Source: a bacterium
Lineage (GTDB): Bacteria > Pseudomonadota > Alphaproteobacteria > Acetobacterales > Acetobacteraceae
Reading direction: 5' to 3'
DNA: 64,000 nucleotides
Assembly: GCA_026224825.1 (NCBI GenBank)
Contig: JAMFRO010000105.1
Location: 1 to 64,000, forward strand
The position numbers and the translations under genes were made by a program. This document shows, piece by piece, positions 7,847 through 17,830 of the stretch (within the stretch, counting starts at the first letter, position 1; each line of letters opens with the position of its first letter). The notes below the pieces were generated by a model. The model was given only the letters and a program-made list of their open reading frames with translations. It ran no database searches and was not told where the DNA came from.

Positions 7847-8266
7847 ATGCGTCACGGTCTTAGCGGTCGTAAACTCAGCGTCACCTCGTCTCATCGCTTG
7901 GCGATGTTCCGCAATATGGCGGTCGCCCTCATAAAGCATGAGCAGATCACCACAACTCTGCCCAAGGCCAAGGAATTGCGCCCGGTGGCAGAGAAGCTGA
8001 TCACGCTTGGCAAGCGCGGCGATCTGCATGCCAAGCGCCAGGCGTTCAACCAGCTGCGCGACGAGACCATCGTTGCCAAATTGTTTGATGCTCTGGCAAC
8101 GCGCTACAAGACGCGCGCTGGCGGTTATACCCGCGTGCTGAAGGCCGGCATGCGCCATGGCGATGCTGCCGATATGGCCGTGATCGAGCTGATCGACCGC
8201 GATGTGTCGGCCAAGGGCCAGGACAGCGGCCCGCGCCCGGAAGTGGCGGCTGAAGACGAGGAATAA
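7847..8266 (+). CDS. rplQ: 50S ribosomal protein L17
   Basis: [45 protein letters not shown]. Confidence 0.97.
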
Positions 8267-8470
8267 GAAAGGCGAGGGGCTTCGCCCCCTCGACCCCGCT
8301 GGGGCCTGTGGCCCCAGACCCCCGATAGTTTAAGATATAAAAAGAGGCCTGCCACTGAGGTGTTCAAACACCCCGGAGGCAGGCCTCTTTTTATATCTTT
8401 TAAAAAACTAATGGGGTCTGGGCCTCAGGCCCAGTGGGGTCGAGGGGGCGAAGCCCCTCGCCTTTCTTAT
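8263..8470. repeat. Long near-perfect inverted repeat (bidirectional terminator-like) between convergent rplQ and small ORF; arms include both stop codons
   Basis: Left arm ATAAGAAAGGCGAGGGGCTTCGCCCCCTCGACCCC...; right arm is its reverse complement GGGGTCGAGGGGGCGAAGCCCCTCGCCTTTCTTAT; central perfect 21-bp stem AGATATAAAAAGAGGCCTGCC (8333-8353 / 8378-8398). Confidence 0.95.
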
Positions 8471-14453: not shown

Positions 14454-14662
14454 GCTGGATGTTAACATGCCGGTAAGGAAGGGGGAACATTGCAGAAGCT
14501 AGGTTTTTCTTGCCCGATCTTTCTTTGTAGTTTAGGAGGTTACGGCGCCTTGTTTAAGCCATCTTTTAGCTGATTGTGTTAAGTGTGGCATTCGCAACGC
14601 TGGAGGCTTCATTCGTGGTCGATATTGCCGGGTCACTTGGCTATGCATTGAAATCCGCTCCC

Positions 14663-15928
14663 ATGCGGTTGGGCGTGCGGCTTTCCATGGGTTGTGCCGG
14701 TCTGGCGTTGCTGGCTGGATGTTCATCCGGCGGTGGCGCGGGGCAGGCCCCTACCGTGGGTTATTATGAATCGCATGCGCACCATAATTATACGCCGCCG
14801 GGCCCGCCCAGCGATCCGTGGGGGCCGTATATCAATGAGGCTTCGGCGCGGTTCGATGTGCCGGCACAGTGGATTCGCCAGGTGATGCGGGTGGAATCCG
14901 GCGGGCATGAATATATCGGTGGGCAACTGACGGTGTCCTCCGCCGGGGCGATGGGGCTGATGCAGCTTGAGCCGGGGACGTATAGCGAGATGGCGTCCCA
15001 GTATGGGCTGGGTTCGGATGCGTTCAATCCGTATGATAATATCATGGCTGGTACTGCCTATATTCATGCGATGTACCAGGTCTATGGCTCGCCGGGGTTT
15101 CTGGCGGCCTATGACGCCGGGCCGGGCCGGCTTAGCTCCTATATGAATGGCTATACTCATTCTCTGCCTGACGAGACGGTGAATTACGTGGCGATGATCG
15201 CGCCGCATATCCAAGGCTATTACCCGGCGCATCGCTCGGAAGCTGATGAGATGGCGCTGAATACGATGCCGATGAACCGGTCGGGCGGGCTTTTGCCGCC
15301 AGGGTTTGTGCCGGATAGCCCGACTCCGGCGGAACTCGCGGCACCTGGTCCGGATGTGCAGTTGGCTTCGATTGCGCCGCCGGAAGCTGTGTCGGCACCC
15401 GTACCGGTACAGCAACAGCCGGTTTATGCCAGCTCGGCGCTCATGGCGCAGGATTCCTTGCCTCCACCGCCCCCGCTGCCGCAGGTTTCGGCGCCGCCGG
15501 CCATGGTGCAGACCGCTTTGGTGATGCCGCAGGCCTTGCCCCCGCCGCCACCACGGATGGCGACGCCTGAGCGGCATAGTTTTTCTGTCATTCCGGCCGC
15601 CATGGCCGATACGCTCCCGCCGCCCCCGCCGCGGCCAACCCTGCCGTCATACGTGATGCAGACGCCGCATCACGCAGGCTGGGCCATTCAGGTTGGGGCT
15701 TACGATACGTCCTCACACGCGCAGGCGGCTTTGGGGATTGCCGAGCTTTCAGCGGTGCAGATGCTGATGGGCGGGCATCCGATGGTGGTGTCCGTGCATG
15801 CCGAGGGGCATGTAAAATACCGGGCGCGTTTTGTCGGGCTGATGCGCGATGAAGCGTTGAACGCCTGCAGCCGCCTGTCCGGCGGCCCGACCGGCTGCAC
15901 CGTCCTCTCGCCCGACGAACAGTCCTAA
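14663..15928 (+). CDS. Lytic transglycosylase (SLT) lipoprotein with proline-rich linker and C-terminal SPOR-like domain
   Basis: Lipobox LALLAGCSSGG; SLT motif VESGGHEYI...SSAGAMGLMQLEPGT; PPPPP linkers; C-term HAGWAIQVGAYDTSSHAQAAL. Confidence 0.88.
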   Translation: MRLGVRLSMGCAGLALLAGCSSGGGAGQAPTVGYYESHAHHNYTPPGPPSDPWGPYINEASARFDVPAQWIRQVMRVESGGHEYIGGQLTVSSAGAMGLMQLEPGTYSEMASQYGLGSDAFNPYDNIMAGTAYIHAMYQVYGSPGFLAAYDAGPGRLSSYMNGYTHSLPDETVNYVAMIAPHIQGYYPAHRSEADEMALNTMPMNRSGGLLPPGFVPDSPTPAELAAPGPDVQLASIAPPEAVSAPVPVQQQPVYASSALMAQDSLPPPPPLPQVSAPPAMVQTALVMPQALPPPPPRMATPERHSFSVIPAAMADTLPPPPPRPTLPSYVMQTPHHAGWAIQVGAYDTSSHAQAALGIAELSAVQMLMGGHPMVVSVHAEGHVKYRARFVGLMRDEALNACSRLSGGPTGCTVLSPDEQS

Positions 15929-16193
15929 CGGGCTGTTTCTGAGGGCGGGGCGTTTCTACGGAAAAGGCCAGGGGCTCCGCCCCTGGACCCCGCTGGGGCC
16001 TGAGGCCCCAGACCCCCACTACTTCGGGTCTTGGAAAGGGATGCCCTGCACGGGCTGTCCAACTACGTGATCTCGAGGGCATCCCTTTCCAAGACCCGGG
16101 TGGGATCCAAGGGCCCTTCGGCCCTTGGCGGGTCCAGGGCAGAGCCCTGGCCTTTTCCGTAGAAACGCCCCGCCCTCAGAAACAGCCCGTTAG
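15925..16193. repeat. Long inverted repeat (bidirectional terminator-like) between convergent transglycosylase and aroKB; arms include both stop codons
   Basis: 48-nt perfect outer arm TAACGGGCTGTTTCTGAGGGCGGGGCGTTTCTACGGAAAAGGCCAGGG with its reverse complement ending at 16192; central 21-bp perfect stem GGGTCTTGGAAAGGGATGCCC (16026-16046 / 16077-16097). Confidence 0.95.
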
Positions 16194-17830
16194 ACGGCGC
16201 CGTTGGCGAGGAGGGTGGTGCGGACGGCGTCTTCGGGGACGTCGCTGCAGGTGAAGGCGCGGCCGATGCCTTTGGTGAGGACGAAGGTTAGTTTGCCGGC
16301 GCGCATTTTTTTGTCTTGCTTCATGTGGGCCAGCAGTTTTTCGGCTGGCAGGTCGGCGATGCGTGGGGGGAGGCCGGTTTGGGCGATGTGCGCGGCGACG
16401 CGGCTGATGTCCTCCTGCGGGCATAGGCCGAGCTGCGCTGAGAGGTGGGTGGCCAGGACCAGGCCGGTGGCGACGGCTTCGCCGTGCAGCAGGGCGCTGC
16501 CATAGCCTGTTTCGGCTTCCAGGGCATGAGCAAAAGTGTGGCCGAGGTTGAGCAGGGCGCGGCCGTCGCTGGGTTTGGTTTCGCGCTCGTCTCCGGCGAC
16601 GATCGTGGCTTTGAAGCGTACGGTGCGGGCGACGGCTTCTGCCAGGAGGGCGTCGTCGCCATTGAGCATGGCGGTGGCGTGGGTCTCGCACCATTCGTAG
16701 AAGGGGGCGTCGCCAATGAGGGCGGATTTGACGATTTCGGCGTAGCCGTTGCGCTTTTGGCGGGGGGGGAGGGTATTCAGGGTAGCTGTGTCGGCGAGGA
16801 CCAGCAGGGGCTGGTGGAAGGCGCCGATGAGGTTTTTGCCGCGGGTGGCGTTGACGCCGGTTTTGCCGCCGACGCTGGAATCGACCTGGGACAGCAGGGT
16901 GGTGGGGATTTGAATGAAGGGCAGGCCGCGTAATGTGGCGGCGGCGGTGAAGCCGGCCAGATCGCCGATGACGCCGCCGCCGAGGGCGATGATGGTGGTG
17001 TGCCGGTCTACCCTCTGCTCCAGCAGGGATTCGACCAGGTGTTGCCAGGTTTGCAGGGTTTTGGAGGTCTCGCCGGGGGGTACGGTGAGCACGGTATGGG
17101 CGATGCCGGTTTCGGTCAGGCTATGTTGAAGTGTGGGCAGATGCAGCCCGGCCACGGTTTCATCCGTGATGATGACGCAGCGTGGTTGCGGCAGGACGGG
17201 GGCGAGCAATGCGCCGGCGCGGTGCAGCAGGTTGGCGGCGATGAGCACCTCGTAGCTGTTCTGCGAGAGCTCTACCGGTACCCGGTGTGGGGGCTGATAG
17301 CCGGAAATTGCGTTGATGACGTTGGTGGTGGTCACGTGTGGGGGATCCTCTGAGCCGTCGACGATGATGTCGGCCTGGGCATAGATGGGGCTGCGCTCGG
17401 CGGAAAGCCGGGCCAGGGTTTCGGCCTGATTGCCGGAATTGAGCAAGGGGCGGTGGGTGCGGCCTTGCACGCGTTGGAGCAGGACCGGTAGCGGGCAGCG
17501 CAGCCAGATGGAGGTGGCGCGTTCGCGGATGGTGTGGCGTGTTTCGGGGTCCATGAAGGCGCCGCCGCCGGGGGCGAGGACGATGCGGCCATTGGCGAGC
17601 AGGCGCTGGATGACGCGTTTTTCGCCGGCGCGGAAATAGGCCTCGCCATGGGTACGGAAAATCTCGGCGATGGTCATGCCGGCGGCGCGTTCTATTTCCT
17701 GATCGGCATCGAAGAACGGCAGGCCCAGTTGGGTGGCCAGCCGTTTGCCGATGGCCGTTTTTCCGGCGCCCATGAGCCCGACCAGCACGATGCTGCGTTC
17801 ATTGGGGTTAAGAACTTCGCTTACGCTCAT
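16190..17830 (-). CDS. aroKB: Bifunctional shikimate kinase / 3-dehydroquinate synthase (AroK-AroB fusion)
   Basis: N-term SIVLVGLMGAGKTAIGKRLATQLGLPFFDADQEIE (AroK); C-term ALGGGVIGDLAGFTAAATLRGLPFIQIPTTLLSQVDSSVGGKTGVN (AroB), one 546-aa ORF. Confidence 0.96.
   Translation of the reverse strand: MSVSEVLNPNERSIVLVGLMGAGKTAIGKRLATQLGLPFFDADQEIERAAGMTIAEIFRTHGEAYFRAGEKRVIQRLLANGRIVLAPGGGAFMDPETRHTIRERATSIWLRCPLPVLLQRVQGRTHRPLLNSGNQAETLARLSAERSPIYAQADIIVDGSEDPPHVTTTNVINAISGYQPPHRVPVELSQNSYEVLIAANLLHRAGALLAPVLPQPRCVIITDETVAGLHLPTLQHSLTETGIAHTVLTVPPGETSKTLQTWQHLVESLLEQRVDRHTTIIALGGGVIGDLAGFTAAATLRGLPFIQIPTTLLSQVDSSVGGKTGVNATRGKNLIGAFHQPLLVLADTATLNTLPPRQKRNGYAEIVKSALIGDAPFYEWCETHATAMLNGDDALLAEAVARTVRFKATIVAGDERETKPSDGRALLNLGHTFAHALEAETGYGSALLHGEAVATGLVLATHLSAQLGLCPQEDISRVAAHIAQTGLPPRIADLPAEKLLAHMKQDKKMRAGKLTFVLTKGIGRAFTCSDVPEDAVRTTLLANGAV

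Follow-up and report, generated by a model that had tools for sequence, protein, structure and literature searches.

Locus-specific arms around a dispersed palindromic core in Acidocella: a putative compound bidirectional terminator probably kept symmetric by template switching

Results

A long palindrome between two convergent genes

The window, i.e. the whole 64-kb stretch of DNA that was analysed, belongs to the draft genome of an acid-loving Acidocella (G000; 4.27 Mb, 108 contigs, 94% complete). A gene for a lytic transglycosylase and the aroKB fusion gene converge here on a 269-nt palindrome, which is composed of the following parts.

8263–8470, unstranded: second compound palindrome of like architecture, flanked by rplQ and a short convergent gene
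14576–15928, forward strand: lytic transglycosylase (SLT)/SPOR-type gene, convergent neighbour
15925–15973, unstranded: left outer arm, 49 nt, containing the SLT stop TAA (15926–15928); perfect reverse complement of 16145–16193
15925–15941, mirrored at 16177–16193, unstranded: locus-specific outermost part CTAACGGGCTGTTTCTG, delimited by genome-wide match search and orthologues
15942–15960, mirrored at 16158–16176, unstranded: semi-conserved inner arm AGGGCGGGGCGTTTCTACG, similar in many, not all, copies
15961–16157, forward strand: core repeat of about 197 nt, dispersed in G000 and its sister species G014
15968–15986, reverse strand: intrinsic-terminator-like hairpin CCAGGGGCGGAGCCCCTGG followed by CCTTTTCC, which would serve aroKB
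15993–16011, unstranded: left half, sub-hairpin CTGGGGCCTGAGGCCCCAG
16025–16047, unstranded: 5' arm of the inner stem (3' arm 16076–16098), with pairing followed across 30 copies
16048–16075, unstranded: central loop; in copies L028, L031, L034 and L083 it is inverted with respect to the shell
16107–16128, unstranded: right half, sub-hairpin CCAAGGGCCCTTCGGCCCTTGG
16134–16150, forward strand: intrinsic-terminator-like hairpin CCAGGGCAGAGCCCTGG followed by CCTTTTCC, which would serve the SLT gene
16145–16193, unstranded: right outer arm, containing the aroKB stop (16190–16192)
16190–17830, reverse strand: aroKB (shikimate kinase/3-dehydroquinate synthase fusion), convergent neighbour

The two outer arms are 100% complementary over 49 nt, one more than an earlier note on this DNA had counted. 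As that note had described, each arm begins one C ahead of the TAA stop of its gene, and on either side the very next base breaks the symmetry. The inner stem proved to be 23 bp long (the note gave 21), and the sub-hairpins CCAGGGGCTCCGCCCCTGG and CTGGGGCCTGAGGCCCCAG reported within the arms are present. Folding of the 269 nt with five flanking bases per side yielded −234 kcal/mol for the forward and −236 kcal/mol for the reverse strand; none of 200 dinucleotide shuffles folds as well (z about −20), and the palindrome is far beyond chance.

Hairpins resembling intrinsic terminators occupy mirror positions, one per strand (two found versus 0.4 expected in shuffles). Each is followed by CCTTTTCC, a tail with a modest T-run, so that both strands carry the hairpin-plus-T-run arrangement of a bidirectional intrinsic terminator. 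Such a position just past both stops of convergent genes is found at the focal locus and at most complete copies of the core. A two-way terminator is a plausible role for the focal palindrome, and it would be the most economical one.

The core is a dispersed repeat

When the genome was searched with the arm and core sequences, as the earlier note had proposed, the core turned out to be shared by many loci and the outer arms to be particular to the locus. By BLAST, 40 distinct places in G000 match the core at 77–100% identity. Many of these matches lie where the assembly broke and a contig ends, and since one such locus may be counted as two contig ends, we estimate that the core recurs at roughly 30–40 loci, mostly between convergent genes (gene context was taken from ORFs and orthologues). 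A pattern for the half-stem matched 79 times versus 0 for the reversed-pattern control. The sister species G014 has about 27 core matches, and the other genomes of the genus hold only short GC-rich modules of the core. Judged by aroKB, the nearest named relatives are Acidocella MAGs.

No full-length match turned up in plasmid and phage collections, where the only match was a piece of 55 nt, in a Rhodovastum plasmid. Rfam gave no match at gathering score; most of the sub-threshold hits were to miRNA precursors, a usual outcome for long hairpins. Likewise, in the literature on Acidocella palindromic repeats and on template switching of bacterial terminators we found no description of this repeat family.

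Across 30 copies, 661 of 683 cells of the inner stem are paired, and 17 of its 23 pairs are represented by two or more Watson–Crick types. This covariation alone is no proof of copying, because selection on RNA pairing also yields compensatory changes, as is known for the stems of intrinsic terminators (PMC5381666). In four copies (L028, L031, L034 and L083) the central loop is inverted relative to the shell. The core loops are thus seen in both orientations, as expected for the spacer of a template-switch product.

Assembly artefact was rejected as a general explanation: the focal copy lies well inside its contig, not at a contig end, and mismatched arm pairs are common to two species. At the starts of contigs C42 and C39 of G000, two core copies (L003 and L006, respectively) are preceded by identical first ~57 bases. 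Since only the arm of C39 fits, the start of C42 is probably a chimeric extension. A palindrome of about 28 nt, GTCGTGCGCAGCACGCCTCCGGCGTGAC, is lodged in core hairpins of L024, L026, L072 and L011, with both halves occupied in L024, L026 and L072. Another dispersed motif (pattern CTCCGGTGCTCACGTAC) has about 20 matches in G000 and 9 in G014, and a similar sequence is located at the broken aroKB contig end of G014.

Outer arms are locus-specific and mirror the stop codons

When each left flank was aligned with the reverse-complemented right flank, locus-specific arms of 0 to about 45 nt appeared outward from the core. Anchors for arm scoring were placed by an automatic procedure, which missed the right position by some bases in a few cases, and the following figures are therefore probably conservative: over positions 22–62 beyond the core, 19 of 30 loci have a left and right arm whose score with each other lies above the 99th percentile of mismatched pairs, and the left arm ranks its own right arm first, or tied, at 21 of 30 copies. 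The copies that fail to do so (9 of 30) are mostly older ones. Left arms of different loci are mutually unrelated, i.e. no single outer arm recurs at many loci; it was such a recurrence that the earlier note had named as speaking against locus-specific growth. The focal CTAACGGGCTGTTTCTG occurs at only two places in the whole genome, which are the two focal arms; the next match has two mismatches. The symmetry extends to the stop codons. According to the ORF table, the distances to the two stops differ by no more than 3 nt at 13 of the 19 convergent loci, with 3.4 expected by permutation (p about 1e-5).

Several arms are inverted copies of neighbouring coding ends

The serA locus (L035) is the most telling in this respect. 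In G014 and G021, serA is followed by a simple hairpin (CCGTGCCCCGCTTTATAGAGGGGCACGG in G014) and then by a gene in the same orientation. G000 lacks the left half of this old hairpin and has the core plus TCTGAACTTGCCAGGTTAGTGGCC in its place. TCTGAACTTGCCAGGTTAGTGGCC is an inverted copy, with few differences, of the serA coding end GGCCACAAACCTGGCATTCTGA; it is followed by GGCTTTATAGAGGGGCA, the other half of the old hairpin, and by the same downstream gene as in the relatives. Since the C-terminus QATNLAF* of SerA is conserved, serA must have been the template. The junction falls at the loop of the ancestral hairpin.

At L002, the end of a GGDEF gene, GTGGCCGTTTCG (encoding VAVS; VAMS in G014), is mirrored past the stop of the convergent gene. 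At L005, the argJ-side sequence TTGTTTCGGTGG resembles the argJ-side sequence CTGTTTCCGAGG of G014, and the opposite side is its mirror. Comparison with outgroups shows for serA, L002 and L005 that one arm was copied, in inverted form, from the ancestral sequence of the locus. Mirrored coding ends are found also at L024, L072, L011 and the G014 locus L081. Where checked (serA, L002, L024), the template arm is coding sequence of the neighbour that is conserved in orthologues. Inverted coding copies of 22–25 nt are seen. The arms are not confined to convergent genes, as the tandem loci relA-acpS, serA and L072 have them, too.

Both arms change in concert between species

The G014 locus L081 and its counterpart in G000, the split locus L014/L003, have a 45-nt arm pair in common. 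Five positions differ between the species yet agree between the arms. Four asymmetries between the arms are kept in both species and, therefore, homogenisation is incomplete at this locus. At yajC, both genes end with TGA in G014 and with TAA in G000, and flanking bases are altered on both sides. At yajC and L024, loci that are occupied in both species, the arms were remodelled after insertion. Concerted changes of this type, as template switching would produce, are seen between the species at yajC, at L081 and in the rplQ inner stem.

The focal arms appear to include an older stem

SLT and aroKB are convergent with short gaps in many relatives. At this place a simple hairpin, GCGGCTTGTCAG/CTGACAAGCCG, is present in G051, and G014 has the arms GAGGCTGTTTCAGAAG/CTTCTGAAACAGCCTC with a different sequence between them, located at the ends of two contigs. 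The focal arms of G000, CTAACGGGCTGTTTCTGA, share with G014 the sequence GGCTGTTTC, which lies within the outermost part; the stem of G051 is similar. Because both relatives have a stem here, and GGCTGTTTC is common to that of G014, the outermost ~17 bp of the focal locus correspond, judging from these orthologues, to an older terminator stem that predates the core. On the left side G014 has an extra AGACTAA that is absent on the right; in G000 the two sides match up to the last base ahead of the stop, which is what homogenisation would give. No focal-locus orthologue shows the states on either side of the copying step, and either arm may have been the template. Two further observations concern this gene pair. 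Past the SLT arm, the end of G014 contig C66 (L121) continues into apparent coding sequence for cytochrome oxidase subunit I, owing to a rearrangement or a misassembly. G021 has two aroKB genes (on C49 and C47), which are 82% and 71% identical to that of the window, and the more distant one adjoins SLT-like sequence on C47.

The only other comparable structure in the window is the palindrome at 8263–8470. Here, too, each arm starts a single base ahead of a stop codon, that of rplQ on one side and that of a convergent gene for 66 amino acids on the other, and the inner stem is unlike the focal one. Among 30 genomes, the compound palindrome is found only in G000 and G014, with arms that start just ahead of the stop; in G014 the contig ends within the right half. 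Nearly all of the other 28 have one short terminator-like hairpin after rplQ. Since 28 of the 30 genomes lack it, the compound form at this locus is derived.

At L028 a core copy sits precisely at the boundary of relA and acpS. In four relatives these two genes overlap by ATGA, and the core copy may affect the translation of acpS. The relatives' overlap carries a weak palindrome (GGCCAAG..CTTGGGC), and the core sits at its centre. Together with SLT-aroKB and serA, there are three loci with core-free orthologues, and they suggest that older palindromes receive the core at their centre.

Discussion

From these comparisons, we propose that the focal palindrome is a compound bidirectional terminator with two layers, a dispersed core and locally built arms that are kept symmetric by template switching. 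We assign a probability of about 0.72 to this reading. The first layer would be the palindromic core of about 197 bp, which carries one terminator-like hairpin per strand and was mostly placed between convergent genes. The second layer, the outer arms, would be made locally at every site. The palindrome would promote template switching during replication, by quasipalindrome correction or snap-back copying, and sequence beside one arm, stop codons and at times coding ends among it, would be copied in reverse onto the opposite flank. Switching between inverted repeats is reported to homogenise their arms and to invert spacers (PMC8604942), and inverted copying is reported to create new stems (PMC8794818). 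Coding constraint on the neighbours would stop the fixation of further arm growth. At SLT-aroKB, the outermost stem would derive from a simple terminator predating the core, the core would have come to lie at its centre, and later homogenisation would have extended the identity of the arms to the base that precedes each stop codon.

The earlier note had offered outward growth by template switching or a modular element as alternatives, and each is partly right. The core is a dispersed module, and the arms are locus-specific and at several loci inverted copies of adjacent coding sequence; the outermost ~17 bp at the focal locus, though, are probably not newly grown. The note's idea that growth is halted by coding constraint does not always hold, as the arms contain about 12–42 nt of coding sequence at serA, L002, L024, L072, L081 and L011.

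An unlikely account would dispense with copying altogether. A mobile palindrome could enter the loop of existing terminator hairpins, so that the arms are simply the old stems and the flanks were never copied. This would explain why relatives have a stem at the same focal place, why the serA junction lies at the loop of an ancestral hairpin, why the core at relA-acpS is centred on the relatives' weak palindrome in the ATGA overlap, and why a smaller palindrome resides within hairpins of L024, L026, L072 and L011. As the sole process, however, insertion is contradicted by the serA locus. There, and at L002, L024, L072, L081 and L011, the arms consist of the neighbour's coding sequence and its inverted copy, and an old terminator stem would hold no conserved coding end; moreover, the arms of yajC and L024, which are occupied in both species, were remodelled after insertion. 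Somewhat more doubtful is a scenario in which the core even spreads without a transposase, where hairpin-primed switching copies it into the centre of other hairpins and extends the arms over gene ends, and the product is kept as a two-way terminator.

That these are ordinary bidirectional terminators, in which independent compensatory mutations under pairing selection maintain the symmetry and the spread of the repeat is incidental, is quite improbable. Intrinsic terminators are documented to undergo compensatory change (PMC5381666), the core has a terminator-like hairpin on each strand, and most copies lie between convergent genes. However, a terminator needs neither a 49-bp outer stem nor mirrored coding ends, inverted coding copies of 22–25 nt are implausible as the result of single compensatory steps, inverted loops are observed, and the tandem loci relA-acpS, serA and L072 carry the same kind of arms. 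Least of all do we expect a classical MITE or IS-derived element that is moved by a transposase acting on terminal inverted repeats. The many dispersed copies with a conserved core, at which the assembly breaks, would fit such an element, but the terminal repeats differ at each locus instead of being constant, and the loci read by eye show no clear target duplication (none clear at L022; TGAT is possible at relA-acpS). Furthermore, a search for Y1/RAYT transposases (PF01797) found none in G000 or the three relatives G014, G021 and G051, which are drafts (G000 94%, G051 85% complete), while control genomes were positive; this search covered the Y1 family, and DDE transposases lie outside it. 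REP elements are short single palindrome units of about 20–40 nt. With a compound core of about 197 nt and no Y1 gene found, the present family does not conform to a REP/RAYT system.

The two-layered terminator that we favour has features in common with several known systems. With quasipalindrome correction and related template-switch mutations (PMC8794818, PMC8604942, PMC7202029) it shares inverted copying from nearby, the perfecting of arms, the inversion of spacers and multi-base changes on both arms; in Acidocella, however, such copying would centre on a dispersed terminator repeat and would have affected dozens of loci within this one genus, with arms that capture stops and coding ends. 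Bidirectional intrinsic terminators (PMC5381666) occupy the same slot between convergent genes, have a terminator-like hairpin per strand and show paired stem changes, whereas the Acidocella element is compound (about 200–270 bp), forms a repeat family and has arms that reach or cross the stops. REP and BIME sequences (PMC2817692, PMC12306157) are likewise dispersed extragenic palindromes of bacterial genomes, but the Acidocella core is a compound of about 200 nt and not REP-sized, the arms are locus-specific and no Y1/RAYT gene was found. In the coding palindromes of nematomorph mitochondria (PMC6649704), too, inverted repeats reach protein-coding sequence, and template switching was proposed for the concerted evolution of the arms. 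Those palindromes lie within mitochondrial genes, while the ones described here are centred on putative intergenic bacterial terminators.

How bacteria acquire and keep long perfect hairpins is an unsettled question. Acidocella offers dozens of independent loci, the states before and after can be read in a sister species, and in some cases a conserved coding end fixes the template arm. Repeats of this type call for caution: assemblies break at them, and they can make RNA covariation look stronger than it is. The mirrored coding ends also suggest that the end of one protein could be rewritten by its convergent neighbour via their common palindrome.
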